Shown in pieces: positions 17,200-36,976 of a stretch of DNA of 64,000 nt. A program made the translations under genes and the position numbers. Source of the stretch: Candidatus Stramentimicrobium fermentans. Its GTDB lineage: Bacteria > Atribacterota > Phoenicimicrobiia > Phoenicimicrobiales > Stramentimicrobiaceae. Under the pieces are notes generated by a model. That model worked only from the letters and a program-made list of their open reading frames with translations, was not told where the DNA came from and searched no databases. The DNA lies in NCBI GenBank assembly GCA_012520575.1, contig JAAYOB010000023.1, positions 68,403 through 132,402 on the forward strand, read 5' to 3'. Numbering within the stretch: the stretch's first letter is position 1; each line of letters begins with the position of its first letter.

Positions 17200-19365
17200 C
17201 TATTTACACTCATTGAACGATGACAATATACCCTCCCGCTTTATCTGTGCATCAGCAATAAGTGACTGTCCTAAGGAGATACAGGCATCATTGGGCGGAA
17301 GTGCTTTATGAACCAATACCTTAAAGTGCTCTTTCTTTAATTTTTTGAAAGCTCTCTCCAAGAGAAAACTATTTTGGAAAACACCCCCGCTTAAAGCAAC
17401 ATAATTAATATTATAATCTTGTCTTATTCTAACACATAGTGAAAGAATAAAATCAGCCACCGTATTGTGAAACTGGCTGGCGATTTGAGATAAAGGAACA
17501 TTTCTTTCCAAATCTGTAATTATCTGTTGAAACATCTCCAGACTATTCACCACCCAATTATTATCTTCCTTTTCAATGAGATAATGGTAATTTTCTTTAT
17601 AGCTTTCCCGGCACAAAGATTCTAATTCTATGGCCGCTTGTCCTTCAAAATCTACCTCATCCCTTAACCCAATCAATGAGGCAACCGCATCAAATAATCT
17701 ACCGCAACTGGAGGTCATGGGCGAATTAATTCCTCTGTCTATCATCTGCTTAAGCAAAGGCAGATTTTTCACACTTTTTTTGTTTCTGAATAGTCCGGGA
17801 ATAGCAGTCAGCTCGGGCCCATAAATAGAATAAAGATAACTGAAGGCCATTCTCCAGGGTTCGTGAATTACCTGTTCCCCTCCGGGCATAGCTATATATT
17901 TTAAATGGCCCACTCTCTGATAATCTTCCGTTGAGACAATCAGAAACTCTCCGCCCCAGATAGCACCATCCGGTCCATAACCGGTCCCATCAAAGGCTAT
18001 TCCAATGGTCTGTTCAGAAATACGATGTTCAGCTAAGCAGCTCGCGATATGGGCAAAATGGTGCTGAACTTTTATCAGTGGTAATCTATATTTCTCCGCT
18101 AATTGCTCGGCATAACGGGTGGAGAGATAATCGGGGTGTGAATCACAGGCGATTACTTCGGGTTCAAATTTTAAAACCCGGGAGAGGTGTTTGATTGACT
18201 CCTGATATGCGGTGAAGCTTTCTTTATTCTTTAAATCACCTAAATGTTGACTGGGAAAGGCATAGTTGTCACGGACAAAACATACAGTATTTTTTTCTTC
18301 CGCCCCTAAGGCAAGAACTGACTTCGTTTTTTGAGCCAACATTATCGGATAGGGGGCGTAACCTCGTGACCTCCTGATAAAGATAGGCTGCAATGGAGTA
18401 ATTTTTAGGACCGAATCATCACAACGATTATAAATTTCTCTATCATGGATGAGTAGAAAATCTACTTTATCAGCAAATTCCCGAAAGACTTTTTCATCTT
18501 CGATTATTATCGGCTCCTCACTATAATTGGCACTGGTCATAATCAGAACCAGATTACTCTTCTGCAATAAGAAATAATGTAAAGGAGTATATGGAAGCAT
18601 AAAACCTAAATAGGCATTACCCGGTGCAACATTTGGTGATAGGAGACAGGTTTTCTTCTTTTTTAAAAGCAGAATTGGTTTTTCCCGGCTCTCTAAATAC
18701 TGCTGAGCAATTTTTGAGACAAAACAGAAATTTTTAATGTGGGAAATGCTCTCAGCCATTAGAGCCAAGGGTTTTTGGTCTCTTTTTTTTATCTCTCTAA
18801 TCTTTGAAACTGCCCTCTCGTTTTGAGCATCACAGGCAAGATGGAATCCCCCTAACCCTTTAATAACACCAATTTCTCCTTTCCTCAACCTCATTTTAGC
18901 TTCCCGTATAGGGTCAGGTATGTTAATCTGCTCATTTCCCACATAGAGAGCAGCCTGCGGTCCGCAAACCGGGCAGGTATCGGGTTGTACATGGTAATGG
19001 CGGTTTTTTATATCCCGGTACTCCTGAACGCAATCTTCGCAACTTGAAATATCGGGAGGCATCAAAATCATAGGGTGTTTATATTTAGAATTACTTTCTT
19101 TTATATAAAATTTAGAGTACCAGACAACAGGAAGATTCTCAATCTTAATCTGATTTATAAAGGCTGGAGTAGGTGGATGATTTTTTAATTCAGCCAAAAA
19201 TTTCTGATAACCGGACTCTTCCCCTTCCACTTCTATCTCTACCCCTTGATTGGAATTACAAATACAACCATACAAATCATATTTTTTAACCAGTCTATGA
19301 ATAAAGGGGTGGAAGTCCACCCCCTGCGCAATGCCATACAAGATAATCTTTTTTCTTATTTTCAT
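17200..19365 (-). CDS. hypF: Carbamoyltransferase HypF, variant with altered N-terminal domains
   Basis: Transfers carbamoyl from carbamoyl phosphate via carbamoyl-AMP to HypE, first step of cyanide ligand synthesis. The YrdC-like domain (about residues 140-320, GEIGVIKGLGGFHLACDA) and the Kae1-like carbamoyltransferase domain (about 345-705, with VQHHFAHIASCL and GIAFDGTGYGPDG) look complete. The N-terminal part is unusual: the acylphosphatase loop reads GIAQGVDFHPF, with His19 where the catalytic Arg normally stands, although Asn37 is kept. Only one CX2C-X18-CX2C zinc finger (Cys109, 112, 131, 134) is present where HypF normally has two in tandem. Length 721 is shorter than the usual 750-770 for that reason. 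First gene of the hypF-C-D group. Confidence 0.95.
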   Translation of the reverse strand: MKIRKKIILYGIAQGVDFHPFIHRLVKKYDLYGCICNSNQGVEIEVEGEESGYQKFLAELKNHPPTPAFINQIKIENLPVVWYSKFYIKESNSKYKHPMILMPPDISSCEDCVQEYRDIKNRHYHVQPDTCPVCGPQAALYVGNEQINIPDPIREAKMRLRKGEIGVIKGLGGFHLACDAQNERAVSKIREIKKRDQKPLALMAESISHIKNFCFVSKIAQQYLESREKPILLLKKKKTCLLSPNVAPGNAYLGFMLPYTPLHYFLLQKSNLVLIMTSANYSEEPIIIEDEKVFREFADKVDFLLIHDREIYNRCDDSVLKITPLQPIFIRRSRGYAPYPIMLAQKTKSVLALGAEEKNTVCFVRDNYAFPSQHLGDLKNKESFTAYQESIKHLSRVLKFEPEVIACDSHPDYLSTRYAEQLAEKYRLPLIKVQHHFAHIASCLAEHRISEQTIGIAFDGTGYGPDGAIWGGEFLIVSTEDYQRVGHLKYIAMPGGEQVIHEPWRMAFSYLYSIYGPELTAIPGLFRNKKSVKNLPLLKQMIDRGINSPMTSSCGRLFDAVASLIGLRDEVDFEGQAAIELESLCRESYKENYHYLIEKEDNNWVVNSLEMFQQIITDLERNVPLSQIASQFHNTVADFILSLCVRIRQDYNINYVALSGGVFQNSFLLERAFKKLKKEHFKVLVHKALPPNDACISLGQSLIADAQIKREGILSSFNECK

Positions 19366-21120: not shown

Positions 21121-21891
21121 TTAATTTTCAATTCTTTCCGGTAAGTTATAGACATTCATTCTCTCCCCTCGGGTAAATCCAATAAGAGTTACACTAAATC
21201 TTTCTGCCAGTTTAATTGCATAATCGGTTACAGCAGACCTGGAAATCACTACCGGTACCCTCCCTATTATAATTTTCTGCATGATACCAGCGGTAATGCG
21301 ACAGGTGGTCAGTATCACTTTATTTTCGGTATCTATACCTTTTAAGAGAGCCTCTCCTAAAATTCTATCTATAGTATTATAACGGCTGATATCTTCGCAG
21401 AATAGTACCATTTGACCGCCGGGGTCTGCCAGGCCACAACTATGAACACCACCGCTTAATTTAAAAAAACCTGCTTTTTCCTGCATTGCGGATAACAGAG
21501 TATAAATCACATCGTTCTTAATTCTAATTCTATTTTTGTCGTTGGTGAATTTTTGTGTTTTGAGTATTAACTTACTAATCTGGCTAGGATATGAGACTCT
21601 GTTTCGAAAAGCATTTGTGAATAAAGACTGATTAATTTCAAAATAGGCAGATTTTTTACCGATTTTAATAGAGATAATATCTTGCCTGTTCTTTATTATT
21701 CCTAAGCTATATAGAAACCCTGCTGTCAGATATTTTAAATTACCGGGGCTGCAGGATAAAGTAGCAATATTTTCCTGATTGACAAAAACATTTACCATTA
21801 TCTCTCTTGCTACTAAATCGATAATTCTTTTTTTCTCATTTTTGTTAATATGCGTTAATTCCAACTCAACCCCTTTTTTATCTTTTAACAT
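21121..21891 (-). CDS. fdhD: FdhD-family sulfurtransferase for formate dehydrogenase maturation (divergent)
   Basis: FdhD passes sulfur from a desulfurase to the Mo/W-bis-PGD cofactor of formate dehydrogenase. Recognisable family segments: AREIMVNVFVN near residue 28, CSPGNLKYLTAGFLYSLGII near 46-66, SGGVHSCGLAD near 147, EDISRYNTIDRILGEALL near 165, and TLIGFTRGERMNVYNLPERI at the C-terminus. Several signature residues differ from the usual form: GRHN reads SRYN, SGR reads TCR, and the CXXC of the E. coli protein is not visible; Cys in VHSCGL and TTCR remain. Overlaps mobA by seven bases. Its presumed client in this locus is a pseudogene (22742-22963). Confidence 0.82.
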   Translation of the reverse strand: MLKDKKGVELELTHINKNEKKRIIDLVAREIMVNVFVNQENIATLSCSPGNLKYLTAGFLYSLGIIKNRQDIISIKIGKKSAYFEINQSLFTNAFRNRVSYPSQISKLILKTQKFTNDKNRIRIKNDVIYTLLSAMQEKAGFFKLSGGVHSCGLADPGGQMVLFCEDISRYNTIDRILGEALLKGIDTENKVILTTCRITAGIMQKIIIGRVPVVISRSAVTDYAIKLAERFSVTLIGFTRGERMNVYNLPERIEN

Positions 21892-22526
21892 TTTTTCTTT
21901 CTCCTGATTAGAGCCAATCTCTCTGCCTCTTTAAAATCATTTCGGAAATTAATATTAAAAAAAGAACATAATTCCGGATCAAATTTTCTAATCTCTTTTT
22001 CGGTAATCTTTCGAATGTTTAAAAAGGGGAAAGTAGACCTTACTGCTAAAACATTTTTTTTGAGATTCTGCTCAATTATGCTCAGACAATTTTTACTATA
22101 AATGGCACATAAAGGCTCCAACAGCCCCTGACCATGTGTGGGAATAACAATGTCATAGCCTTCCATAAGTCCTGTCATATATTCTATTAAATTAACCTCC
22201 ACAAAAGGCATATCGTATCCAATAATCAGATTGTAAAATGTTTTAGAATATTGCAAGCCGGAATAAATTCCCCCCAATGGCCCCTTTTGAGGGAAATAAT
22301 CTTCTACAATGTTCTTATATTGGACAAATCTATCTTTTGGTCCTACAATTATAATATCATGCTCCGTAATTGTTTTCAGAGAAAGAATATTTAGAATAAC
22401 CTGCCCGATCAGGCTACTACCCCTAAATGGCAGATAACCTTTGTCTTTATCCAAGCCTATTCTGCTGCTTTTCCCGCCTGCTAAAACAATGACCGAAATA
22501 GGAAAAGGTTTCTTCTCTGAAATCAT
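21885..22526 (-). CDS. mobA: Molybdenum cofactor guanylyltransferase
   Basis: Attaches GMP to molybdopterin to form the guanine dinucleotide cofactor used by formate dehydrogenases. Nucleotidyltransferase motif VIVLAGGKSSRIGLDKDKG lies near the N-terminus, PQKGPLGGIYSGLQ near 85, and the metal-binding IIGYDMPFVE near 108. I place the start at ATG 22526; an in-frame TTG at 22541 is an alternative, and neither has a strong ribosome binding site. Length 213 is usual. Coupled to fdhD by overlap. Separated from the decayed fdh operon by a terminator at 22588-22624. Confidence 0.88.
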   Translation of the reverse strand: MISEKKPFPISVIVLAGGKSSRIGLDKDKGYLPFRGSSLIGQVILNILSLKTITEHDIIIVGPKDRFVQYKNIVEDYFPQKGPLGGIYSGLQYSKTFYNLIIGYDMPFVEVNLIEYMTGLMEGYDIVIPTHGQGLLEPLCAIYSKNCLSIIEQNLKKNVLAVRSTFPFLNIRKITEKEIRKFDPELCSFFNINFRNDFKEAERLALIRRKKKC

Positions 22527-22587
22527 TTTTATTTTTACCAACTCAATTAAAAGTTAATACTCTTAGCAGATTGACAGCCTCTCCAGT

Positions 22588-22663: not shown

Positions 22664-22741
22664 TTATCCTTCTCTTAAATATGCGTACCGGTATAAAGTA
22701 GCTCCAAAAAAGACCCCGCCAATTATATTTCCAAATAATTA
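22664..22741 (-). pseudogene. Remnant of a FocA/NirC-type formate channel (C-terminus only)
   Basis: Reading the minus strand gives LFGNIIGGVFFGATLYRYAY then LREG and a stop. GNIIGG plus an aromatic-rich helix ending in YLR is the characteristic last transmembrane helix of the formate/nitrite transporter family. About 230 residues expected before it are missing; the frame is closed by a stop just upstream and the fdhA remnant abuts it. The segment is short, so identification rests on the GNIIGG motif and on the formate dehydrogenase remnant beside it. Confidence 0.68.
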
Positions 22742-22963
22742 TTATGATATCTTCCTAACTTTAACAACACATACTTTGTATTCAGGCATTTTAGAAATTA
22801 GGTCGGGGCCGCATTGGTCAACACAGGCTAGTTAATGCCTGCCTTTATTGCTGCCTCTAAAATAGTTGTATCAGGTTCTACTATTACCCTTCTTGCCATC
22901 AATAGCAGCTTATACCGTTGGTGTGGTATTTGCTTCTCTTTTTGAATCTTTTGTTTTATTCAT
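22742..22963 (-). pseudogene. Formate dehydrogenase large subunit, internally deleted and frameshifted
   Basis: Just after the NuoF-like gene, a reading frame starting ATG 22963 encodes the beginning of an N-terminal 2Fe-2S domain: an in-frame stop, then IDGKK, a one-base shift, then VIVEPDTTILEAAIKAGIN. The next bases switch directly to the C-terminus of a molybdopterin formate dehydrogenase: VLTNAAP, a one-base shift, then ISKMPEYKVCVVKVRKIS and stop at 22742. The ferredoxin-like start and the LTN..DPISK.PEYKVC.V.V ending both fit FdhA-type subunits of about 900 residues. Nearly the whole catalytic body, including the active-site Cys/Sec region and metal-binding domains, is gone. Reading-frame lesions make translation meaningless. 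Confidence 0.82.
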
Positions 22964-23027
22964 TCTTGACTTTCTAAAACCTGTAATTTTTGTTATAAGT
23001 TTTGTTCAACAATATTTATGAAAATTA

Positions 23028-24821
23028 TTAATGGCTCTTTATGGCATTAAATCGACAAGCATCGTAGCAAACCCCACATTTTATACAGATATTCTGGTCT
23101 ATCTTATGAGGCTTTTTCTTTTCACCGGAAATAGCCTTAACCGGACACTTTATAGCACAAACCGTGCAACCGGTACATTTTTCCGGATTAATTTCAAATT
23201 TTAATAGCGATTTACATACTCCTGCTCGGCATTTTTTATCCCTGATATGTTCGATGTACTCATCTCTAAAATATCTAAGGGTGGTTAGAATGGGATTGGG
23301 AGCAGTCTGTCCTAAGGCACAAAGAGAAGTGTCCTGTATGCGAACAGCTAATTCTTCTAAAACATCTAAGTCTTCCATTTTACCCTTCCCCTGACAAATT
23401 TTAGTTAACATATCCAGCATAATCCTGGTACCTTCTCTACAGGGGGTACACTTACCACAGGATTCATCTTGAATAAAATTCATGAAATAGCGAGCAATAT
23501 CGACCATGCAGGTATCTTCATCCATTACTACCAATCCACCCGAACCCATAATGGCCCCGAGCTCCTTTAATGATTCATAATCAATTCTTGCATCGAGATG
23601 TTCTTCGGGAATACAGCCTCCTGATGGTCCCCCAATCTGCACTGCTCTTAATTTCTTATTGTTAGGGATTCCACCGCCAATATTGTAGACAATTTCTCTT
23701 AAAGTTATTCCTATGGGCACTTCAATAAGCCCCGTATTAGTAACATCTCCGGCAAGAGCAAATACCTTAGTCCCTTTGCTTTTTTCAGTTCCCATTGAAG
23801 CAAAATTTTCAGCTCCATGCAGAATTATGTATGGAATATTTGCTAATGTTTCCACATTATTTAAAACAGTTGGCAATCCAAACAAACCTTTATTGGCAGG
23901 GAAAGGTGGTCTGGGGCGAGGCTCTCCCCTTTTTCCCTCAATAGAGTGAATCAAAGCAGTCTCTTCGCCGCAAACAAATGCACCAGCACCTATTCTAATT
24001 TCTACATCAAAATCAAAACCGGTATTTAATATATTCTTTCCTAATAGCTCATATTTTCTCATTTCGGCAATAGCAATCTCTAGCCTCTTAATTGCTAGGG
24101 GATATTCGGCACGGACATAGATATAGCCCTGATTGGCGCCAATAGCGTATCCTGCAATCATCATAGCCTCTAATACACTATAGGAGTCACCTTCTAGCAT
24201 ACTGCGGTCCATAAAGGCACCCGGGTCACCCTCATCAGCATTACACAAAACATATTTTTGTTTACCGGGGGCTTTGGCAGCAAATTCCCATTTCAGTCCA
24301 GTGGGAAATCCGGCTCCCCCTCTACCTCTTAATCCTGATTTCTTTATCTCTTCAATCACCTCTTGTGGAGTCATCTCAGTCAAAACCTTCCCCAGTGCTA
24401 CAAAGCCATCAGCCCCTATATAGTCATCTATCGCATTAACATCAATTATCCCACAATTTCTTCTTGCAATTGTCTTTTGCAGTTTAAAGAAATCAATTTC
24501 TTCCATAATAGATATTAATTCTCCCGTGTCCGGTTTTTTGTAAAAAAGGCGCTGTACAACTCTTCCTTTCAGAAGATGTTCTTGTACAATTTCCCGGGTG
24601 TCCTCCGGTGTAACCCGTTGGTAAAAAACCCCATCAGGATAAACAACCATTACAGGACCAAGTTCGCATATTCCCATACAACCTGTAGTAATTATTTCGA
24701 CTTCTTTGTCCAATTTAGCTTCTTTTAGTGCCGCTTTAAATGCTTTTACCACTTCTACTGCACCATTTGACACACAAGAAGTGCCCTGGCAAATAAGAAG
24801 CTGGGTTCTTATATTATTCAT
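23028..24821 (-). CDS. NuoF/HydB-type NADH-binding flavoprotein subunit with ferredoxin domains
   Basis: 597-residue NAD(H):ferredoxin-type diaphorase subunit. Domains in order: thioredoxin-like 2Fe-2S domain (residues 1-90, CQGTSCVSNGA and TTGCMGICELGP), FMN/NADH-binding Nuo51 domain (GLRGRGGAGFPTGLKW near 165; NADEGDPGAFMDR near 205), SLBB, the C-terminal [4Fe-4S] site SCGKCTPCREGT near 455, and a two-cluster ferredoxin tail (CTGCTVCAIKCP and CIKCGVCYDACRF). This layout is that of HydB/HndC and of NAD-dependent formate dehydrogenase beta subunits. All motifs are intact. AAGGAG precedes the ATG. The catalytic subunit that should follow is a pseudogene, so it is either an orphan or works with a partner encoded elsewhere. 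Confidence 0.95.
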   Translation of the reverse strand: MNNIRTQLLICQGTSCVSNGAVEVVKAFKAALKEAKLDKEVEIITTGCMGICELGPVMVVYPDGVFYQRVTPEDTREIVQEHLLKGRVVQRLFYKKPDTGELISIMEEIDFFKLQKTIARRNCGIIDVNAIDDYIGADGFVALGKVLTEMTPQEVIEEIKKSGLRGRGGAGFPTGLKWEFAAKAPGKQKYVLCNADEGDPGAFMDRSMLEGDSYSVLEAMMIAGYAIGANQGYIYVRAEYPLAIKRLEIAIAEMRKYELLGKNILNTGFDFDVEIRIGAGAFVCGEETALIHSIEGKRGEPRPRPPFPANKGLFGLPTVLNNVETLANIPYIILHGAENFASMGTEKSKGTKVFALAGDVTNTGLIEVPIGITLREIVYNIGGGIPNNKKLRAVQIGGPSGGCIPEEHLDARIDYESLKELGAIMGSGGLVVMDEDTCMVDIARYFMNFIQDESCGKCTPCREGTRIMLDMLTKICQGKGKMEDLDVLEELAVRIQDTSLCALGQTAPNPILTTLRYFRDEYIEHIRDKKCRAGVCKSLLKFEINPEKCTGCTVCAIKCPVKAISGEKKKPHKIDQNICIKCGVCYDACRFNAIKSH

Positions 24822-24843
24822 AATTCAGATACTCCTTATTATA

Positions 24844-25341
24844 CTATTTATACTGTTCTAAAATTGCATCCAACATATTCGTGGTCAACCTGCCATGCAC
24901 ATGATTGTCAATCATAATTACAGGCGCCATACCGCATGAGCCAAAACAGGGCTGACAACCTAAGGTAAACCTCATATCTTCCGTAGTTTCCCCTTCTTTG
25001 ATGCCCAGTTTCTTTTCTAGTTCGTCCAATATTTTCTGGGCTCCTCTTACATAACAGGCCGTCCCCATACAAACAGTTATCGTGTGCCTGCCTATAGGAT
25101 TTGTTTTAAAATAAGAATAGAATGTTGCTACCCCAAATACTTCGCTCTCAGATAAATTCATTTCTTGCGCAATAAATTCCATAACCTCCGGAGGCAAGTA
25201 TTTGAATAATTCTTGCGCTTTATATAAAGCAGGGATTAAGTAACCCCTTTTATCCTTGTTTTCCACAATAAATTTTTTTAATTGGTCGTACTTTTCCCGT
25301 GAGGGAGATGCTTTGGGTTCTACAATAGTCATTTTACTCAT
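24844..25341 (-). CDS. NuoE/HydC-type 2Fe-2S subunit
   Basis: 165-residue thioredoxin-fold [2Fe-2S] subunit that partners with the NuoF-like protein. The helical N-terminal part (YLIPALYKAQELFKYLP near residue 35) and the cluster ligands TVCMGTACYVRGA near 88 and LGCQPCFGSCGMAP near 128 are present. Typical length. Its start overlaps the end of the upstream ferredoxin gene by eight bases and it lies 22 bases before nuoF, consistent with one transcript. Confidence 0.95.
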   Translation of the reverse strand: MSKMTIVEPKASPSREKYDQLKKFIVENKDKRGYLIPALYKAQELFKYLPPEVMEFIAQEMNLSESEVFGVATFYSYFKTNPIGRHTITVCMGTACYVRGAQKILDELEKKLGIKEGETTEDMRFTLGCQPCFGSCGMAPVIMIDNHVHGRLTTNMLDAILEQYK

Positions 25342-25708
25342 TAGTTTTTCCTCTTTGAAATATATATTGTTCTACTACCTTGTTATTTAAAACATGTTCA
25401 TCAAAAATAAGTCTAGCAGCTTCCACATCAACATTGTGATAAGTTACGGGAATTTGGTCTTCTGCATAGATATGTACCATGGGTTCCTGAACACAAAAAC
25501 CAAAACATCCTGAGGCAGTAACCACGATGTCATTTCTTTCACTCTTTAGGATCAAATTCAAGAACTCGTTCATTGTCTCTCTTGCTCCGGCAGCTATTCC
25601 ACAGGTACCCATTCCAATAACAATTTTGATATTGTGCTTCCCCGATCTGAGTGCCAAATCTTTCTGCGCTTTGTCCCGCATAATCTTTAGTTCTTCTAGG
25701 TTTTTCAT
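25334..25708 (-). CDS. Thioredoxin-like [2Fe-2S] ferredoxin
   Basis: 124-residue protein with GMGTCGIAAGARE near residue 33 and TASGCFGFCVQEPMVHI near 64-80, the four cysteines of the thioredoxin-like 2Fe-2S ferredoxin family. Such small ferredoxins regularly lie between the regulatory ATPase gene and nuoE in bifurcating hydrogenase and formate dehydrogenase operons of anaerobes. A good ribosome binding site (GGAG) precedes ATG 25708. It appears intact, unlike several neighbours. Confidence 0.9.
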   Translation of the reverse strand: MKNLEELKIMRDKAQKDLALRSGKHNIKIVIGMGTCGIAAGARETMNEFLNLILKSERNDIVVTASGCFGFCVQEPMVHIYAEDQIPVTYHNVDVEAARLIFDEHVLNNKVVEQYIFQRGKTNE

Positions 25709-25764
25709 AAAAACTCCTCTCCAAATGTTACATTTATATTAAAATATGCCGATATCTGTTTGTA

Positions 25765-26301
25765 TTAAACAACATTTATGCTCTTCAACTCTTTTTTAGT
25801 AGTCTCATAAATATGCTTTCTTATCTGCAGATAATCTTTCGAACCTTCTTCTATCTCCTTTTGCAACCCTGAAAAGTCTAAAATCAAATGTTCTCTTCCC
25901 TCTTTTATTATAAAAATCTTCAGTCCGATATCAGGCCTAGACAGGAAGATGTCAGAGAAAGTCATAGCTAAATCTCCAAACGGTTTAGCATCAATATGGG
26001 AGGTATTTATTTTGAATTCCAGTTCAGTTCCTCCTGCCTCATCTTTTCTTCTTATTTTTAAATATCCTCCAGTGTCTTCTGCTGCCCTTTCTAACAAAGG
26101 TAGACCTAGCCCGATTCTCCTGGTTTTCCGGGTAGTTACAAAAGGATCCAGCACTTCCTGTCCGGTAATTCCTCTCCCATTATCAGAGATGCTGCAGAAA
26201 AAATGATTTTTATCATAAGCTATTTTTAATACAACTTCATTAGCTTCTGCATTAAAAGAATTTTCTAAAATATCGAAAATGTGGTCAGCTATATCCTTCA
26301 A
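25765..26301 (-). CDS. Small GHKL-type ATPase of the redox operon
   Basis: Histidine-kinase-like ATP-binding protein without a phospho-acceptor domain. N-box FDILENSFNAEANEV near residues 9-23, G1 box ISDNGRGI near 45, and TTRKTRRIGLGLPLLERAAE near 58-77 are present, followed by GGTELEF and the family-specific HIDAKPFGDLAMTF. I place the start at TTG 26301 because GGAAGG lies six bases upstream and the protein then begins MKDIADHIFDI, the normal family start. The frame is open 30 codons further upstream, but that part is the decayed end of the PHP gene read in another frame. Length 178. Role in the operon is unknown; homologues accompany NADH-linked hydrogenases. Confidence 0.85.
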   Translation of the reverse strand: MKDIADHIFDILENSFNAEANEVVLKIAYDKNHFFCSISDNGRGITGQEVLDPFVTTRKTRRIGLGLPLLERAAEDTGGYLKIRRKDEAGGTELEFKINTSHIDAKPFGDLAMTFSDIFLSRPDIGLKIFIIKEGREHLILDFSGLQKEIEEGSKDYLQIRKHIYETTKKELKSINVV

Positions 26302-26618
26302 TTTCGGCCTTCCTGAGAAAATTATGCAATGAATTAAAATCTTCTCTATCTGTATATTTTCTTGCACATCCCCCAAAATGGGCCAGGCCAACTAACTCAT
26401 TCATACTTTCCTATGAAGCATTTTGCCTTATTAACCATACTCTCCTTCTTTAAGTCGATTGAGTAAAATAGAATGGACTACCGCATTATGGTCAGTAATA
26501 GCAATCAGGTTTAGCCCACTCTGTTCTGCTTTTTTGGTATCCTTTGTGGTGACATTATATTTTCCCCACAAGCTGAAAGAGAAGAATGGATGTGCAAATC
26601 AAGCTTGATTTTTATCAT
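26285..26618 (-). pseudogene. PHP-domain phosphoesterase, internally deleted and frameshifted
   Basis: From ATG 26618 (behind AGAGG) the minus strand reads MIKIKLDLHIHSSLSACGEN then IMSPQRIPKK, a one-base shift, then AEQSGLNLIAITDHNAVV and HSILLNRLKEGEYG before a stop at 26431. DLHIHS and ITDHN are the metal-binding PHP motifs. Further on, LAHFGGCARKYTDREDF and LHNFLRKAEIEGYS, ending at a TGA (26285-26287), look like the C-terminal end with the remaining metal-site AH. About 110-130 codons between the two parts are missing compared with relatives of this operon type. The stop overlaps the start of the next gene, preserving the old coupling. Confidence 0.8.
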
Positions 26619-26943
26619 CCTCTAATAATTTATAAATCATTCCACATAATTGAAATGAATTTTTATCGCTACTATACAAATTAATTCCTTCTTCTTTGGC
26701 TTTATCAGTCAATTCTTGATCAACAACAACATCATTACTAAAAACAATTGCTCGAATACCTTTGATTAGCGCAACAGCGATACTGTTTTTGTGAGCTTGA
26801 ACGGTTATCCAGATACTTTCACTTTCGGCGTGCCCAATAACATCTGACATTAAGTCTCCACAATAACCTGCTTTAATCTCGTCATTGGAGCAGAAAACTA
26901 TTTCATTCAGATTACAACTCTGCACAATCTGACTTAGCTTCAT
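26599..26943 (-). CDS. DRTGG-domain protein
   Basis: 114-residue protein of the DRTGG type that accompanies NADH-linked hydrogenase and formate dehydrogenase operons. Core segment GYCGDLMSDVIGHAESESIWIT at residues 26-47 (quoted parts GYCGDLMSDVI and SIWITVQAH), then AVALIKGIRAIVF and a C-terminal LCGMIYKLLEDD. Function unknown; a ligand-sensing role is inferred from the domain. Its ATG overlaps the TGA of the ancestral CBS-ATPase gene in an ATGA arrangement and its end overlaps the PHP start by 20 bases. Frame intact. Confidence 0.85.
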   Translation of the reverse strand: MKLSQIVQSCNLNEIVFCSNDEIKAGYCGDLMSDVIGHAESESIWITVQAHKNSIAVALIKGIRAIVFSNDVVVDQELTDKAKEEGINLYSSDKNSFQLCGMIYKLLEDDKNQA

Positions 26944-27778
26944 CTTGAATCCTCCAAATAAACTATTGCTTTTAATACAGTACCTGTCTTTATAGAAGAT
27001 TCCCGTCTAATTTGTCAGCACGTTTTTTAGATTAGGCAACTCATTCCGGCACCAAATCCTAATACTCCAATCTGCTCAGAAGCTGCGGCAAAACCGGATT
27101 TCAAAACCTTTTCTATATCATGAATACCTGGACTATAATCTACAGCAGCAATGATTATCCTATCTTACTCCACCTGTGAGATTGTATACCTTCCCAGAGA
27201 ATGTGTACTGATATTTATATCAGCTCCGTAATAGATTATCGACGCTCTTTTTAGAATCTGTTTTTATCAATATTTAATTTTTGTAAATACTTTGCTTATA
27301 ACACTAGCAGGTCTACCAACATTATCGAAATCAGCCTTTCCTGCTTCAAATCGTAGTGGTTTTTGCTGAAATCGCCCATGGTAAGTATTTCAACTATTTT
27401 TGGGGAATGTGTATTTTCTGTTACGGGTAACTGCCCGTATTTATATTTTTCAAATTTTTTAATGGCAGAAACAGGAGAATGGTTCTGAGGGATAGCTATG
27501 ACATCTTTAGACATATAGTCTTTTATTTTCTCGGTAATATAGTTTTCGTCCAGAGTGGTTATTGCATCATCTAGACTAATGATGCCAATTACTTTTTTTG
27601 CTTCATATAAGATAGGCGTACCAGGCATTCTATTCTTCTTTAATGATTGTTGAATTTCACGAAAGGTGACGTCTTCACTAAGAAAAATGACTTTTCTGGT
27701 CATGGCATTTTCTATTTTTAATTGATAGATGAGCTCATGGGCTAAGGTCAATTTTTCTCCGGACTGTAAAATATTCAT
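26940..27778 (-). pseudogene. CBS-domain / anti-sigma-type ATPase fusion, broken by frameshifts
   Basis: The first 160 codons (ATG 27778 to 27296) remain open: two CBS domains with IENAMTRKVIFLSEDV near residue 23 and IKDYMSKDVIAIPQNHSPV near 85. After the second CBS domain the frame shifts, but the rest is readable in pieces: ADFDNVGRPASVISKVF, LQKLNIDKNR, KRASIIYYGADINISTHSLG, then IIIAAVDYSPGIHDIEKVL, GVLGFGAGM, LPNL, and finally SSIKTGTVLKAIVYLEDSR with TGA at 26940-26942. These are the N, G1, G2 and GT parts of an RsbW-like ATPase. At least four frameshifts and one in-frame stop separate them. The CBS part might still be made as a truncated protein with an unrelated tail. Confidence 0.85.
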
Positions 27779-27924
27779 TAGTTTTTCTGTAATTAGATGA
27801 TTATCATATCGGTCTGCACAAAAGTCATTATATCAAGTAGTCGTATGGATAATATTTACACCATAAGCTTATTTTTGTTTATGATTATCGCTCGCTTAAG
27901 GGTAGTTTTTACGATTAAATAGTT

Positions 27925-27942
27925 TTGTGAAATATATCACAA
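27925..27942. promoter_or_regulatory. Rex operator
   Basis: TTGTGA-AATATA-TCACAA is a perfect 18-base inverted repeat and matches the established consensus TTGTGA-N6-TCACAA of the NADH/NAD-sensing repressor Rex. It begins 13 bases downstream of the -10 box at 27956-27961, covering the expected early transcribed region, so Rex binding would block transcription. The rex gene lies just upstream (28130-28762). Confidence 0.9.
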
Positions 27943-27955
27943 AGTTAGCCGAAAT

Positions 27956-27985
27956 ATTGTACCATATGCCGATAAGACATGTCAA
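27956..27985 (-). promoter_or_regulatory. Sigma-70 promoter of the CBS-ATPase/fdh operon
   Basis: On the minus strand, -35 TTGACA (consensus; complement of 27980-27985) and -10 TACAAT (one mismatch; complement of 27956-27961) are 18 bases apart. It points toward the start codon at 27778 and is followed directly by the Rex operator. Confidence 0.85.
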
Positions 27986-28129: not shown

Positions 28130-28762
28130 TTAAAACAGATAATAAACCAATTTTTCTAATTCAATAGCAATATCTATATGTTTAATTGATACTTCCGGTG
28201 GGTGCTTAATGTTGATAGGGGCAAAATTAAGTATAGACCTAACCCCTCCTCCTATCATCTTATAAGCTACTTCTTGAGCGGATTCGGCAGGAACCGTTAT
28301 AATACCGATGTTTATTTTCTGATCTTTTAAACATTTTTCCATTTTCTGAATATCTTGTATTTTAATATTATCTACTTTAGTACCTATCTTAGAAACATCG
28401 TTATCGAAAACTAATTTAATATTAAAACCCCTTTTAGAAAAACCCTTGTAACGAAGGAGGGCGGTGCCGATATTGCCAACACCAACCAGGGCGACATCCC
28501 ATTTTTGGCCAGCCCTCATTACTTCTTTTAATTGTTCAGTTAATCCGAATAGAGGATAGCCTACTCCTCTCTTCCCAAAGGCACCAAAATAGGAAAAGTC
28601 TTTTCTAATCTGACTGGAATTAATGCCGGTTATCTCTGACAACTTAGTAGAGGATATGGTAGGTAGATCGGTATCCTGCGCAAATTCAAGTAAAGACAGT
28701 AAAGTCCTATAATAAATTGGTAATCGACCAATAGTTGCTTGCGGAACATGTTTTTTTCTAAT
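28130..28762 (-). CDS. rex: Redox-sensing transcriptional repressor Rex (start codon unusual or lost)
   Basis: Rex senses the NADH/NAD ratio and represses fermentation and hydrogen genes. The C-terminal Rossmann domain shows ALVGVGNIGTALLRY near residue 92 and VPAESAQEVAYKM near 157. The N-terminal winged helix is present in the same uninterrupted frame: HVPQATIGRLPIYYRTLL and TGINSSQIRKDFSYFG, which gives the normal 210 residues if translation begins at ATT 28762. The only upstream ATG (28773-28775, after AGAGG) is one base out of frame. The first ordinary start in frame is TTG 28642, which would remove the first 40 residues, about half the winged helix. Either a rare start codon is used or a one-base insertion has disabled the gene. 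Confidence 0.85.
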   Translation of the reverse strand: MRKKHVPQATIGRLPIYYRTLLSLLEFAQDTDLPTISSTKLSEITGINSSQIRKDFSYFGAFGKRGVGYPLFGLTEQLKEVMRAGQKWDVALVGVGNIGTALLRYKGFSKRGFNIKLVFDNDVSKIGTKVDNIKIQDIQKMEKCLKDQKINIGIITVPAESAQEVAYKMIGGGVRSILNFAPINIKHPPEVSIKHIDIAIELEKLVYYLF

Positions 28763-30984: not shown

Positions 30985-31992
30985 TTATATCAGATAGTCA
31001 ACTGCCATAAACAATAAACCGATTAGCCCTATTACCGATAAAAAGATTAAATAGGCCGAGGAGGCTTGATCTATCTTCAATCGTGCCAAAGCAACACGGA
31101 TAAAGGTTACTTCAAAGAATAGAACCACAAATAATTTAACAAAAAAGAATAGTATGTCCATAATATAGGCCGGGAATCCGCTTAAAGAGAGTAATGGTGA
31201 TATATTATAAGGAAAAAATAACACTATAGTCAGGGTTCCCATTACCACCATTTTAACCGCATTGGTCAGTTCAAATAAAGCCAAGTTACGACCGGAATAC
31301 TCCACCAGGACACCACCGGCTAATTCCGTTTCCGCCTCAGGTGTATCGAAAGGTACAACGGATAACTCAGCCGGAGTAACTATAACCAAGGTAAATAGCA
31401 ATAGTATGGCACCTAAGAAACCGAGTGGGCCAACTATGCCCCAGATAGGATTAGTGCTGAACGATGCTAGTGAAAAGACTTTTAGTCCGGGAAAGGCTAG
31501 ATTCAGGCGCCAGCCTAAAACAATAACGGTGGTCACTAAGGGTAGCTCATAACTCATCAACAGGACCATCTCTCTTTGTGCTCCGATGCTGGCATAAGAA
31601 GAGCCAGAGGAAAACCCTCCTGTCACCAGAGCAACGGCAGGCATAGCAAGTAAATAGACAATCAGTATTAAATCACCGGAATTGGCAAACAGTGCCGGTA
31701 TAGGACCAAATGGGAGATAGAATAAAATGGTTATTGTAGATACTAATGCCAGAACCGGTGCACCGTTAAAAATCCAGGGAACTGCATTTTTAGGAACAAT
31801 ATTCTCTTTGATCATCAGCTTAAAAAAGTCCAAAAAAGGCTGTCTGATAGGAGGCCCTACACGAGATTGCAACAAGGCTGCCAATTTACGGTCAATACCT
31901 TTATAAAACAGCCCTATTATTACCCCTAATACTGCAATTAGCAACGTACCTAAGATTTTTAAAATAAAAATAAAGATACTGCTTACGCTCAT
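30985..31992 (-). CDS. mbhM: Membrane-bound hydrogenase subunit MbhM (NuoH-like)
   Basis: Integral membrane subunit at the interface between the hydrogenase arm and the membrane. 335 residues with about eight membrane helices; conserved segments RVGPPIRQPFLDFFKLMIKE near residue 43 and PFDTPEAETELAGGVLVEYS near 215, the latter matching the acidic loop that faces the catalytic arm in complex I. Start overlaps the mbhL stop by four bases. Confidence 0.95.
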   Translation of the reverse strand: MSVSSIFIFILKILGTLLIAVLGVIIGLFYKGIDRKLAALLQSRVGPPIRQPFLDFFKLMIKENIVPKNAVPWIFNGAPVLALVSTITILFYLPFGPIPALFANSGDLILIVYLLAMPAVALVTGGFSSGSSYASIGAQREMVLLMSYELPLVTTVIVLGWRLNLAFPGLKVFSLASFSTNPIWGIVGPLGFLGAILLLFTLVIVTPAELSVVPFDTPEAETELAGGVLVEYSGRNLALFELTNAVKMVVMGTLTIVLFFPYNISPLLSLSGFPAYIMDILFFFVKLFVVLFFEVTFIRVALARLKIDQASSAYLIFLSVIGLIGLLFMAVDYLI

Positions 31993-33212
31993 TTCATCAT
32001 CCTCCTGGTTTTAGCAATACTCAATTTTATTAAATCTTCCCTGGTAAGCACCTGTTGTTGATTGGTCTTGGATTCTACCAGTGTTACCCTATCCATGCAA
32101 CCTATGCAGGGGTCAATAGATGCTGTGACAATAGGGATATCGGCTATTTCTTGGCCCTGCAGCATGGGTATCCAGGACATCAGATTGTTATATGTTGGGG
32201 CTCTCGCTCTCCAAACTTCCGGATTCTCTGATTCATTTAATTTTATATAATGGATGGCTTCACCGCGAGGAGCTTCATGTCTGCCCACTCCTTCACCCTT
32301 TGCTTTTTTTAAAACAGCAAGCAGTTTCGCCAGTTTAGGCTCTGAAACAATATCCCCCTCAGGCAAGTTATCTAAACAGTATTCGATAATCTCTACTGAT
32401 TGAGCAACTTCCAATATTCTAACTATAATACGGTCAAAAACATCTCCTTTAACTTCGCCGGTGAAGAAATCCGGTGTTATAGCTTTGATATCCATATCGG
32501 CATAGGCAGAATAAGGTTGGTCCTGTCTGATATCTTTTTTGATTCCCGACGCTCTTGCAGTAGGTCCCACGCTGGCTAAATGTAAAGCCTGCTCATAAGT
32601 CAAAATACCCACATTCTTAGTTCTTATGGCAATACTGGGGTCTTTTAGAAAGACATTTTCTAAAGTCTGATAAGTCTCTTTATAATAATCCAGAGTCTTT
32701 CTGATACGAGGTAAGTGCTCTTCGGTAATATCTCTTCTAACCCCTCCAATCATAAACATGCCATAGTTAATCCGGTTACCGGTAAGCAATTCCAGGAGGT
32801 CCAGCACCTCTTCCCGTACTTTCCAGGAAAGGTATAATACTGAATTAAATCCTAACTCCTCTGCAGCTATTCCGGCCCACAATATATGGGACTGTATTCT
32901 TTCTAATTCAGCAATGATAACTCTGATATATTCCGCCCTGGGCGGCACTTCAATGCCGGCGGCATTTTCTACGGCACGGCAAAAGGCATAGGGATGTGAG
33001 GCAGAACATATACCGCATATTCGCTCAGCCAGATAAATTATCTGGATAATGTTCCTATTTCTGCCCATAAATTCGATGCCTCGATGATTATCGCCGGGGA
33101 CCAGGTCAACCCTTTCAATTCTTTCACCGGTTATCTCAAAATTGAAGGTCATCGGTTCCGCCAATGAGGGATGAATGGGACCAATAGGTATTTTATAGGT
33201 AGTTTTACTCAA
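31989..33212 (-). CDS. mbhL: Membrane-bound [NiFe] hydrogenase large subunit MbhL
   Basis: Catalytic subunit of a group 4 energy-converting hydrogenase, reducing protons with electrons from ferredoxin. Both nickel-binding CXXC pairs are intact: RICGIC at residues 64-69 and DPCIGC at 367-372, so it is a true hydrogenase and not a complex I NuoD. The 32 residues after MDR at the C-terminus are consistent with a cleavable tail for the protease at 29809-30255. 407 residues. TTG start at 33212, supported by GAGGTG. Assembly depends on HypF-C-D-E (14506-19365); hypA and hypB are not in this window. Confidence 0.96.
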   Translation of the reverse strand: MSKTTYKIPIGPIHPSLAEPMTFNFEITGERIERVDLVPGDNHRGIEFMGRNRNIIQIIYLAERICGICSASHPYAFCRAVENAAGIEVPPRAEYIRVIIAELERIQSHILWAGIAAEELGFNSVLYLSWKVREEVLDLLELLTGNRINYGMFMIGGVRRDITEEHLPRIRKTLDYYKETYQTLENVFLKDPSIAIRTKNVGILTYEQALHLASVGPTARASGIKKDIRQDQPYSAYADMDIKAITPDFFTGEVKGDVFDRIIVRILEVAQSVEIIEYCLDNLPEGDIVSEPKLAKLLAVLKKAKGEGVGRHEAPRGEAIHYIKLNESENPEVWRARAPTYNNLMSWIPMLQGQEIADIPIVTASIDPCIGCMDRVTLVESKTNQQQVLTREDLIKLSIAKTRRMMK

Positions 33213-33223
33213 TTGTAATCACC

Positions 33224-33739
33224 TCAGCTTTCCTGTTGAACGAGTTCGTCCAAGCCTTTTTGTTCTTTTCTAAGAGGAAAGACGTCTTTGGGGAAGTCTT
33301 CCGGTAAAAAGATATTACGCATTTCCGGAAGCCCTATAAATTCTACTCCGAACATCTCTTTGATTTCCCTCTCAGTTGTTTGAGCTCCAGGAAGTAAATC
33401 AGTTATACTATCTATAGATGGCTTTTCTCTTTCTAAACTGACTTTTAGGTTGAGTGAAATTTCTTTAAACTTTTCTCCATAAAAAAGGGTAAAGAGATAG
33501 GTCAAATCAATACTTTCCCCAGTATCATTACCAACAATTATGGCGATGTGGGGATAGTGCAGACTCATTAATAATTTTACCGTATCTCTGAATTTCTCTT
33601 TTTTTACTTCTAACCAGATATTATAAAACTCTTCCTCTTTAATTCCCGCTTTTCCAGTTGCGATATGACTATCTAAAATATTGTCTTTTAAATTTTCTTT
33701 TAAAAATGATAATAAATTTTTGGGATTTAAAAACTCCAT
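33224..33739 (-). CDS. mbhK: Membrane-bound hydrogenase subunit MbhK (NuoC-like)
   Basis: 171-residue 30-kDa-type subunit of complex I that packs against the large subunit. SIDLTYLFTLFYGEKF near residue 76 and the conserved C-terminal segment AQTTEREIKEMFGVEFIGLP near 120 with the following FPLRKEQ fit NuoC/HycE-N. Lies between mbhJ (28 bases) and mbhL (11 bases). Confidence 0.92.
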   Translation of the reverse strand: MEFLNPKNLLSFLKENLKDNILDSHIATGKAGIKEEEFYNIWLEVKKEKFRDTVKLLMSLHYPHIAIIVGNDTGESIDLTYLFTLFYGEKFKEISLNLKVSLEREKPSIDSITDLLPGAQTTEREIKEMFGVEFIGLPEMRNIFLPEDFPKDVFPLRKEQKGLDELVQQES

Positions 33740-33767
33740 ATTATCACCTGAGCCCTCTCATTATATT

Positions 33768-34235
33768 TTAAGCATTAACCTCTGCTATTTTCTTTTCAAT
33801 GTCAGCACCAGAGCCTCTTAACCTTTCTAACTTCAACCATGCTTGTAAAACACCGTTTATGATGGCTTCCGGCCTTACCGGGCAACCGGGAACATAGACA
33901 TCCACCGGTATATGTTTGTCTACCGGACCAACTACATTATAGGAATCATAAAACACTCCTCCACTGGTTCCACATGCTCCCACTACGATTACCGCTTTAG
34001 GGTCAGGAGTCTGCTCGTATATCAATTTTAATCTGGGCAGCATTTTCCTATTTACAGGGCCTGTTACCAGTAAAACATCGGCATGCCTGGGAGTTCCCAC
34101 TAACTTGATGCCAAATCTTTCCACATCATATCTAGGTGTCAAGAGAGCTACTATCTCTATATCACACCCATTGCAAGAACCGGTATTTAAATGGAATACC
34201 CATAAGGAACGATCGAAATAGTTATCTAATTTCAT
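33768..34235 (-). CDS. mbhJ: Membrane-bound hydrogenase small subunit MbhJ (NuoB-like)
   Basis: Carries the proximal [4Fe-4S] cluster next to the [NiFe] site. Four ligands are seen: NTGSCNGCDIEIVALLTPRY near residues 17-36, VVGACGTSGG near 100, and VPGCPVRPEAIINGV near 133. 155 residues, usual for group 4 small subunits. Starts five bases before the mbhI stop region, tightly spaced in the operon. Confidence 0.95.
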   Translation of the reverse strand: MKLDNYFDRSLWVFHLNTGSCNGCDIEIVALLTPRYDVERFGIKLVGTPRHADVLLVTGPVNRKMLPRLKLIYEQTPDPKAVIVVGACGTSGGVFYDSYNVVGPVDKHIPVDVYVPGCPVRPEAIINGVLQAWLKLERLRGSGADIEKKIAEVNA

Positions 34236-34239
34236 TATA

Positions 34240-34581
34240 CTAACTCACCCCAACTATAATAAAGATAATAGCCATTATTAAGATAATCCAGCCGCTGTAA
34301 TCGTTAATGCTTCCGGTATGCATCTTGACCAGAGGCTCATAATAATTTTTTAAAGCCTCGGTAAATCCCCAGTAGATATGGCTTGCTCCAACATGAGAAT
34401 CTTCTTTACTTATTTCCGGGTTACCGGAAAGAAAGGGTTTAGTCTGGTTGGTACCTTTCTTATATTTCTCTTCACCTTCATTCCGTAAATAGATAACCCC
34501 TGCTCCGATTATCAGTACGGCTATGAACCATATTAGTGCATTCCAGTGACCACTCCCTGTTTCCAATAAGCCAATATTCAT
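34240..34581 (-). CDS. mbhI: Membrane-bound hydrogenase subunit MbhI
   Basis: 113 residues with two membrane helices (about residues 14-31 and 95-112) and a middle loop with KPFLSGNPEISKEDSHVGAS and HIYWGFTEALKNYYEPL. MbhI links the antiporter module with the hydrogenase module in Pyrococcus. Assignment rests on position between mbhH and mbhJ and on the FLSGN loop. Confidence 0.85.
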   Translation of the reverse strand: MNIGLLETGSGHWNALIWFIAVLIIGAGVIYLRNEGEEKYKKGTNQTKPFLSGNPEISKEDSHVGASHIYWGFTEALKNYYEPLVKMHTGSINDYSGWIILIMAIIFIIVGVS

Positions 34582-34582
34582 A

Positions 34583-36151
34583 TTACATTCCTCCTAAAAT
34601 TGTTGAGGTGTAGTGAGATTGATTAATTAAAGCCATCACAGCAGGATGCACAATATATTTAACAATGAGATTGGGGAATAGTCCAAAAAAGATAATGATG
34701 ATGCTTAAAACCGCCATAGCGAACACCATACTCTTAGGTACTTCCTGTACTGACTTATACTGCTCCAGCTGCGGTCCTAAAAATGCACTATGGAATATTT
34801 TTACAAAAGAAGCCAGAGTTAAAATACTGACCAGCATGGCAATAATGGCCAGCAGCGGATTGAACTGATAGACCGATTCATAGATAATCAATTTGGAGGC
34901 AAACCCATTGAATGGCGGAATCCCGGCTATAGCTGCTGCTCCAATAATATAAAATAAAGTAGTATAAGACATATTATGAGCTAATCCGCCCATTTTATTC
35001 AAATCTCTGGTCCCGGTCCTATAAAATAAAGCACCTGCTGTTAAAAACAAGAGCCCCTTATACAAGGCATTATTAATAATATGAAAGATTCCGCCCTCCA
35101 TTGCTTTTATCCCATAGCTTGCTAATGCTGCCGGATTGGCTAAAACTGCTAGCCCTACTCCCACTCCTAAAAGCATATACCCGGTCTGAGAAATAGAGTG
35201 ATAGGCCATCAGGCGCTTAATATCCTTCTGTATAACGGCCATGGTAACACCGATAAACATGGAGAGGACTCCTAAAATAATAAGAATCCAACCCACGGTT
35301 ACCGTGTTTAAAGTAACATTATAGAGCGAAAAGATAATCCTAAAAAGTGCATATAGACTGGCTTGGCTGGTGGCAACTAAAACCACAGTAATTGCTGATG
35401 GTGCTTCAGAATAGGCATCAGGAGTCCACATATGCATGGGTACCGCCCCGGATTTCATAGCCAACATGGTAAGAAAAAGTATCAAGGCCATCTTATCCAA
35501 TTTAGTAAATTGCATAAAACTCGCAATGGCCGCCATGTTTAAAGTGCCGTATTGTCCATAGAACAACCCGATAGCAAATAATACCATCAGCGCAGAAATA
35601 GAGCTGATTACCATATATTTGATGGCTGCCTCTGCCGGCTCTCCATTGAAAGTACTGCGAAAACTAATCAGGGCAACCGAGGAAATAGAAGAAATTTCAA
35701 AAAAAACAAAGAAGTTAAATATGTCACCGGTTAATTCCATTCCAAACATACTGGTAGCCAAAAGAAGAAGGAGAGTATAATATTTATCCACTCCGCTATA
35801 ATCTTCCATATAAGAGATAGAGTAAACAGCAGCCAAAAAAGAAATTACGGCTGTTATTAAAGCCATAAATATTCCCATAGCATCTATCTGGAAAATGATA
35901 CGGATGGGAAAAGTATATCCGGATGGCAATGCCAGTCCCGCCTCACCTCCCCCAAAGACATAGACAATGGTACCATTGGTGAGAATCTGTCCGGCCATAA
36001 GAAGGGTTAAGAGCAGAGTTACTCCAAATACAGCAGAAACAAACCAGCTAATCTTCTTGTAATTAAACCGACCCAATATTGGTGTGACAAAAGCCGCTAA
36101 CAGGGGTAGGGCAATTACCAGAGCAGGTGCATGCATCAAAATCCCATTCAT
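34583..36151 (-). CDS. mbhH: Antiporter subunit MbhH (MrpD/NuoN-like)
   Basis: Large ion-translocating subunit, 522 residues and about 14 helices. Complex I/Mrp signature parts: the Glu-containing LLLLATSMFGMELTGDIFNF near 130, MKSGAVPMHMWTPDAYSEAP with its key Lys near 225, and DIKRLMAYHSISQTGYMLLG near 310. It would pump Na+ or H+ during proton reduction. Overlaps mbhG by four bases. Confidence 0.95.
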   Translation of the reverse strand: MNGILMHAPALVIALPLLAAFVTPILGRFNYKKISWFVSAVFGVTLLLTLLMAGQILTNGTIVYVFGGGEAGLALPSGYTFPIRIIFQIDAMGIFMALITAVISFLAAVYSISYMEDYSGVDKYYTLLLLLATSMFGMELTGDIFNFFVFFEISSISSVALISFRSTFNGEPAEAAIKYMVISSISALMVLFAIGLFYGQYGTLNMAAIASFMQFTKLDKMALILFLTMLAMKSGAVPMHMWTPDAYSEAPSAITVVLVATSQASLYALFRIIFSLYNVTLNTVTVGWILIILGVLSMFIGVTMAVIQKDIKRLMAYHSISQTGYMLLGVGVGLAVLANPAALASYGIKAMEGGIFHIINNALYKGLLFLTAGALFYRTGTRDLNKMGGLAHNMSYTTLFYIIGAAAIAGIPPFNGFASKLIIYESVYQFNPLLAIIAMLVSILTLASFVKIFHSAFLGPQLEQYKSVQEVPKSMVFAMAVLSIIIIFFGLFPNLIVKYIVHPAVMALINQSHYTSTILGGM

Positions 36152-36495
36152 CCTCTTAACCTCCTTATCTCATCTGTTTCTATGGTGCCATATTGTTTAT
36201 AAAGAATCATGGCGATAGATAGAACCAGAGCTGTAGTTGCTACACCGATTACGATGCTGGTCAGGCATAGCGCTTGTGGTGTGGGTAGTACCATTTTGAC
36301 CCCCTCCGGCGCCATAGTATAAATAGGGGCCACCCCGCCCTTGCGATATCCTAAGGTAATCAGAAATAAATTGACACCGCCTTCAAGTAAAGTTAAGCCT
36401 ATAGCAATTTTAATTAAATTCTTTTTAAACATTAGGGAATACATCCCTAATGCAATTAGCATAATCACAGCAACAAAGGGGAAATTTCCTATCAT
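36148..36495 (-). CDS. mbhG: Antiporter subunit MbhG (MrpC/NuoK-like)
   Basis: 115 residues, three helices, with GLTLLEGGVNLFLITLGY near residue 33 carrying the conserved membrane Glu of NuoK/MrpC, and LPTPQALCLTSIVIGVATTA near 70. One base separates it from mbhF; it overlaps mbhH by four. Confidence 0.94.
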   Translation of the reverse strand: MIGNFPFVAVIMLIALGMYSLMFKKNLIKIAIGLTLLEGGVNLFLITLGYRKGGVAPIYTMAPEGVKMVLPTPQALCLTSIVIGVATTALVLSIAMILYKQYGTIETDEIRRLRG

Positions 36496-36496
36496 A

Positions 36497-36976
36497 TTAT
36501 GATTTCTCCTTATTCTGTATAATTTCAGCGGCAGCTGACATAGTCAAAACTATCACTCCTAATGCTGCTAAAACCTCTAAACCAACAGCAATATTCATCA
36601 AGGCTATAGTACCGCTTGTATTTAAATCACCCGGGTTCACTCCGATAACAGTCGGAGAGCCGAATAAACCTCCGCTGTTAGCTACAATATTGTAAAAATA
36701 AGTTGCACTTATTCCTAAAAAGCCAAACGAACCAAAAAGGATCAGACCGGTACTCTCTATCACAGAAAGTAAGTCTTTCGCTATATATTGTTGTATCACC
36801 TCGGTACCGTAGGTAACCAACAACAAGGCAAAGGCAGAGGCGACGATTGCTCCGCCTTGGAATCCTCCTCCTGGTGAGAGATGACCATGGGCAATAACAT
36901 AAAACCCAAAGACAACTATAAAACCAAAAATTATATTCGTCATAGTCCTTACAATGCGTGACATTTCACCTATCAT
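36497..36976 (-). CDS. mbhF: Antiporter subunit MbhF (MrpB-like)
   Basis: 159 residues with four helices. FVIAHGHLSPGGGFQGGAIV is recognisable in FYVIAHGHLSPGGGFQGG near residues 24-41, the MrpB/DUF4040-partner signature. Overlaps mbhE by four bases. Confidence 0.93.
   Translation of the reverse strand: MIGEMSRIVRTMTNIIFGFIVVFGFYVIAHGHLSPGGGFQGGAIVASAFALLLVTYGTEVIQQYIAKDLLSVIESTGLILFGSFGFLGISATYFYNIVANSGGLFGSPTVIGVNPGDLNTSGTIALMNIAVGLEVLAALGVIVLTMSAAAEIIQNKEKS

Follow-up and report, generated by a model that had tools for sequence, protein, structure and literature searches.

In the 64-kb window analysed here, a stretch of the genome of Candidatus Stramentimicrobium fermentans, the minus strand from position 28750 to 22589 carries the rex gene, a promoter with a perfect Rex operator, a damaged operon and a strong terminator. 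This locus is read as the remains of a Rex-repressed, NAD(P)-linked and putatively bifurcating formate dehydrogenase (FDH) operon of the BfuABC/HydABC family, whose surviving electron-transfer module appears to be reused with HydA, an [FeFe]-hydrogenase-type protein encoded elsewhere in the genome. A probability of about 0.6 is given to this reading as a whole. Decay of the FDH operon is close to certain, because intact syntenic operons exist in the genus. Coordinates are positions in the window; the genome comprises 1.58 Mb in 50 contigs, and the locus lies on a contig of 132 kb.

The intact operon is carried by four genomes of the same genus (G001-G004). In three of them (G001-G003) it is complete at the syntenic place, in the order Rex, DRTGG, CBS-HATPase, DRTGG, PHP, HATPase, 2Fe-2S ferredoxin, NuoE, NuoF, FdhA, FocA, MobA and FdhD; in G004, whose contig begins inside NuoF, it is seen from the NuoF end through to FdhD. 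Same-genus contigs of G001, G002 and, in part, G003 are collinear with the window, and a control-gene tree identifies G002, which has a fused form of NuoF, as the sister species. Remnants were placed by frame-aware mapping on orthologues from the sister genomes, which gave the following layout:

27779..27906, minus strand: scar of the deleted first gene (115-aa DRTGG/PucR-like) between promoter and CBS gene; 127 bp, against about 424 bp in G001, where the gene is intact
27371..27778, minus strand: CBS-HATPase head with two CBS domains, aa 1-136; 67% identity to G001
26955..27365, minus strand: C-terminal-half remnant of CBS-HATPase, aa 172-308; 54% identity, five or more frameshifting indels, one in-frame stop
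26599..26943, minus strand: DRTGG-family gene, 114 aa, intact; 65-71% identity, full length
26430..26609, minus strand: PHP remnant, aa 13-72; 52% identity, frameshift and stops
26282..26341, minus strand: PHP C-terminal-end remnant, aa 238-257; 65% identity
25765..26301, minus strand: HATPase gene, 178 aa, intact; 63-70% identity, full length
25334..25708, minus strand: 2Fe-2S thioredoxin-like ferredoxin, 124 aa, intact, cluster cysteines kept; 72-74% identity
24844..25341, minus strand: NuoE/HydC-like, 165 aa, intact, cluster cysteines kept; PF01257, 172 bits
23028..24821, minus strand: NuoF/HydB-like, 597 aa, intact; PF01512, PF10589, Fer4
22819..22965, minus strand: fdhA start remnant, aa 1-47; start codon lost, one frameshift, one stop
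22745..22821, minus strand: fdhA end remnant, aa 905-924; 70-75% identity
22670..22734, minus strand: focA end remnant, aa 268-288; 71-81% identity, about 0.8 kb absent

Deletions of about 0.1, 0.3, 0.4, 0.8 and 2.6 kb run through the dead pieces. The CBS-HATPase gene has lost about 100 bp after aa 136, and with them its frame; about 400 bp are absent between the two PHP remnants, and about 2.6 kb between the two ends of fdhA. In addition, the roughly 730 alignable nt of remnants contain about ten small disabling changes (frameshifts, stops and start losses). At this density some 49 lesions would be expected in the 3.5 kb of kept open reading frames (ORFs), where none is present, in a comparison of events that may differ in age. 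Because of this deficit, selection on the kept genes is supported, and their selective retention is judged highly probable. The NuoE-like BfuC and NuoF-like BfuB subunits of a BfuABC-type operon are present as full-length ORFs with Pfam and NCBIfam matches. FdhA, which has a pterin domain and N-terminal Fe-S clusters in G001-G003, is represented in the window by its two ends only. Neither another copy of the 924-aa FdhA nor any FocA was found in the genome, in which the window set is the sole NuoEF set. The original prediction, made from the letters of this DNA, had described a Rex-controlled FDH operon in mid-decay with this gene order, these broken and intact genes and a Rex operator, and both the mapping and the intact syntenic operons agree with it; where relatives were compared for conserved short genes, full-length genes were found instead.

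The control elements of the operon are as follows:

28130..28750, minus strand: rex, redox-sensing repressor, 5' of the operon; NCBIfam Rex subfamily, 216.6 bits
27956..27985, minus strand: sigma-70-type promoter TTGACA-18-TACAAT; 11/12 consensus matches, position kept in G001 and G002
27925..27942, no strand assigned: Rex operator TTGTGATATATTTCACAA, perfect palindrome TTGTGA-N6-TCACAA; sole perfect site in the 1.58-Mb genome
22589..22624, minus strand: intrinsic operon terminator, stem GGGGTTATAC / GTATAACCCC; 10-bp stem, 11-nt loop, T5 (U5 tail)

The features of a Rex regulon, a rex gene and a predicted operator at the operon promoter, are both present at the locus, and perfect Rex sites also stand 5' of the orthologous operon in G001, G002, G003, G007, G010, G016 and G021. 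The ribosome-site junctions survive together with promoter and operator; the nearly consensus promoter, perfect operator and terminator stem bear out the earlier claim that promoter, operator, start/stop junctions and terminator had all outlived the decay. The rex frame at 28643-28750 (minus strand) is open and encodes the conserved N-terminus with no preceding ATG, GTG or TTG, as in G001 and G002, and its start codon is likely non-canonical (ATT or ATC). Truncation of rex as part of the decay was rejected, since no stop interrupts the frame across the conserved N-terminus and a canonical start is lacking in the sisters too.

A search of the genome for another FdhA or [FeFe] hydrogenase, of the kind that the original prediction had envisaged as a possible partner encoded elsewhere, yielded a 691-aa FdhA on contig C34 and a HydA-type gene on contig C25. 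The latter is the only HydA-type gene in the genome; it is unlinked to the window, intact, 600 aa long and 83-87% identical to those of the sisters, and its omega on this genome's branch is 0.03. It has the HydA Fe-S domains and the L1-L3 motifs TSCSPGW, MPCTAKKFE and EVMTCPGGC (PF02906, 331 bits; PF02256). TSCSPGW was considered as a sign of a dead H-cluster and dismissed, since A. woodii HydA1 carries it too. Elsewhere in the family and order, HydA, FdhA and NuoEF share one operon, and the three occur together in G007-G009, G016 and G023. That HydA is the partner of the kept module is put at even odds. HydA-type genes occur in many genomes of the order, although HydF/HydG were found in none of G001-G024. 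Because the absence of these maturases from the order leaves the H-cluster supply of HydA in doubt, a role of the kept module in making or using H2 is treated here as hypothetical.

The HydA promoter contains the site TTGTGCAATATTTCACAA, with one mismatch to the Rex operator, immediately after the -10 element. Five Rex sites with at most one mismatch occur genome-wide, which corresponds to a chance of about 0.0016 of finding one in a given 500 bp; the built-in control of the operator scan returned counts equal to those of the pattern and was not used. The HydA promoter of G001, G003 and G006 (the last from another genus) yielded no Rex site within one mismatch. HydA is preceded by a molybdenum cofactor (Moco) riboswitch (RF01055) in G001 (84.2 bits), G003 (77.4), G006 (74.6) and G002 (74.5). 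The same leader stretch here scores 30.4 bits, under the gathering threshold (36), and the Rex site overlaps its first P1 strand, which is altered. The riboswitch loss is specific to HydA, because C25 also has an intact Moco riboswitch (70.7 bits) in front of a molybdate/tungstate-type transporter. As to the expression platform, no terminator was found in the one sister leader scanned. The sisters (L189 1-3877, L093 4759-8300) have HydA next to a divergently oriented molybdate/tungstate-type ABC transporter, and a separate Moco riboswitch belongs to each of the two. Riboswitches of the Moco type ahead of hydrogenases are already on record (PMC5651825, for Eubacterium limosum; PMC9481103), and a Moco riboswitch at a hydrogenase is therefore not claimed as new; no report of a riboswitch replaced by a Rex site was found in the literature searched.

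These elements can be arranged into one proposed course of events. Decay has turned FdhA, FocA (the formate channel) and three accessory genes into pseudogenes in this lineage, and the 2Fe-2S ferredoxin, NuoE and NuoF, together with the DRTGG and HATPase proteins, are very probably retained by selection. The kept module would most likely now serve the C25 HydA, with NADH and reduced ferredoxin feeding HydA instead of FdhA. High NADH would take Rex off its operators, and the operon and HydA would both be expressed; the erosion of the riboswitch, with a Rex operator over its first strand, would place both enzyme halves under one regulator. We infer that Rex binds, that HydA and NuoEF assemble and that the reaction runs in this way; judged from sequence, the ancestral FDH probably bifurcated electrons. 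A more specific version, in which loss of the molybdenum enzyme came first, HydA then shifted from riboswitch to Rex control and joined the orphaned NuoEF operon, and HydA works without HydF/HydG, is possible but doubtful. Recent loss and a continuing role had been offered by the original prediction as alternatives; the evidence speaks for the two in combination, with FdhA and FocA lost and the ferredoxin-NuoE-NuoF set kept, HydA being its leading candidate partner.

The kept NuoF differs from that of the genus in its C-terminus. The NuoF of G001-G004, and of nearly every relative examined, carries a fused NfnB/GltD flavoprotein domain and is 1009-1034 aa long; the window NuoF is 84-85% identical to genus NuoF over aa 1-540 only, and its residues 541-597 form a 2x[4Fe-4S] tail that replaces this domain. 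The tail is 77% identical to that of G006; the best match in the phylum outside G006 reaches 57-61%, which does not exceed the 66% of clostridial HydB. In G006 the tailed NuoF directly precedes the start of an intact FdhA, and FdhA, FocA, MobA and FdhD stand on a second contig. The idea that the tail is a by-product of decay was rejected on this ground, and the tail is older than the decay and not part of it. In trees, the window NuoE and NuoF group with G006 (support 100/96 and 97/95), whereas the window ferredoxin groups with its own genus (99/95). Because of this split, and with G002 as the sister species, the NuoE-NuoF module is, on the tree evidence, one with a history unlike that of its neighbours, most simply explained by horizontal exchange; it is possible that the tail was copied by recombination from the FdhA-linked NuoF of f2 genomes. 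Elsewhere, the NuoF of G008 (L025 704-5612) groups with that of G001, although the type in its genus-mate G009 is 74% identical, a pattern suggestive of NuoEF module exchange between genera. The earlier reconstruction of the operon had given its order correctly but overlooked that a first DRTGG gene is deleted, that NuoF has a changed C-terminus, that NuoE and NuoF have an ancestry of their own and that the HydA promoter is rewired.

Two cofactor genes lie beyond the operon terminator:

21885..22541, minus strand: mobA, molybdenum cofactor guanylyltransferase, intact; PF12804
21121..21891, minus strand: fdhD, formate dehydrogenase sulfurtransferase, intact; TIGR00129 above cut-off

Their survival may be due to the second FdhA on C34, which is of a different type, intact, adjoins HdrB-/HdrC-like genes and is also present in the sisters. 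The ferredoxin-NuoE-NuoF set could in principle serve this enzyme instead of HydA, as it is the only other formate dehydrogenase and mobA and fdhD are retained. However, the C34 FdhA sits with HdrB-/HdrC-like genes, is without the N-terminal Fe-S domains by which the 924-aa FdhA docks NuoEF, and coexists with the intact operon in the sisters; its contig has no Rex site with fewer than two mismatches, and the proposal is considered quite improbable. Even less credence is given to an artefact of assembly or binning, in which the deletions would be collapses or strain mixtures in a metagenome-assembled genome. The deletions and lesions are indeed known here from the assembly alone, which is split into 50 contigs. 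Nevertheless, the locus lies inside a 132-kb contig that is collinear with the sisters, the remnants show many scattered indels, stops and substitutions and not single clean joins, the genome is estimated to be 98% complete and 0.25% contaminated, and an independent correlate, the eroded riboswitch with a Rex site at HydA, stands on another contig.

A further alternative is plain pseudogenisation in progress, with the whole operon dead or dying and ferredoxin, NuoE and NuoF open only for want of mutation. These three proteins carry more lineage-specific amino-acid changes than those of the sisters (ferredoxin 14.8% versus 3-7%, NuoE 15% versus about 1%, NuoF 11% versus 1-2%), and the omega of NuoE on this branch, 0.39, is not distinguishable from 1 and possibly reflects a raised rate. 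Several other points weigh with the latter against retention for use with HydA. The CBS head (408 nt) is likewise lesion-free as part of a broken gene, and the kept genes may just be unhit so far if FdhA died last. Codon-rate tests fail to separate kept from dead genes, the CBS C-terminal half also scoring 0.07; branch omega tests were discarded for dating the decay, since synonymous changes are almost saturated and an undoubted pseudogene fragment received that score. The HydA operator has one mismatch and a function that is predicted only. Furthermore, HydF/HydG were found neither here nor in G001-G024 (the order) and are present in G025-G030, which belong to other orders of the phylum; HydE was not searched for. 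Against pseudogenisation of the whole operon, the excess changes in NuoE and NuoF are largely due to the different ancestry shared with G006, 3.5 kb would hardly have survived by chance at this density of lesions, ferredoxin and NuoE keep all their cluster cysteines, the omega of NuoF is 0.05, and promoter, operator and ribosome-site junctions survive. It is therefore regarded as rather unlikely, and reuse of the kept module with HydA is preferred.

Among other genes of the window, HypF (17200-19365, minus strand) has an in-frame loss of about 50 aa that takes away one of the pair of zf-HYPF fingers, and in its acylphosphatase motif GVDFHPF replaces GVGFRPF. Despite these changes, the window's Ech/Mrp-type [NiFe] hydrogenase genes (30985-36976) look intact. 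The content of FeFe group A3, NiFe group 4 and fdhA would fit the Atribacterota class JS1/Phoenicimicrobiia as described in PMC11227167.

The locus offers a natural experiment on shared electron-transfer modules. Relatives keep one NADH/ferredoxin module beside FDH and HydA; here the formate branch has been lost, the module kept and the regulation of the other branch changed. If reuse with HydA is correct, it shows that a shared bifurcating core can be reassigned after loss of a catalytic subunit, and that a transcription-factor site can take the place of a riboswitch. The absence of the maturases poses a separate and directly testable question.

Several known systems resemble parts of this arrangement. 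With the Fdh-Bfu/HydABC (BfuABC) family, the locus shares NuoE (BfuC) and NuoF (BfuB) with FMN domain and Fe-S clusters, and the sister FdhA, with N-terminal BfuA-like clusters and a pterin domain, matches Type 1 Fdh-Bfu (PMC9304861). It differs in that the catalytic subunit is gone here, the sister NuoF is fused to NfnB/GltD and bifurcation is putative. The C25 HydA is a full-length match to HydA1 of the electron-bifurcating [FeFe]-hydrogenase of Acetobacterium woodii (PDB 7q4v; E 4.3e-175), with which it has the TSCSPGW L1 motif in common, and to the closest solved relative, HydA1 of PDB 8a6t (E 1.6e-188); unlike these, it is unlinked from NuoEF and belongs to an order in which HydF and HydG were not found. 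In the FdhA-Hyt complex of Clostridium autoethanogenum (PMC9304861), FDH and [FeFe]-hydrogenase subunits likewise share one NADH/ferredoxin module, whereas in this genus the catalytic subunits are split over contigs and the system is known here from genes alone. Sporomusa-type Nfn (Stn / Nfn-Bfu; PMC7483475, PMC10482914) joins an NfnB-like NADP-reacting flavoprotein to a NuoE/NuoF-type module, as does the 1009-aa NuoF of the sisters; the window NuoF is without the NfnB-like domain. Finally, the Moco/Wco riboswitch (PMC5651825, PMC9481103) is represented in the sisters by RF01055 in the leader of an [FeFe]-hydrogenase-type gene, whereas here a Rex operator overlaps an eroded aptamer.

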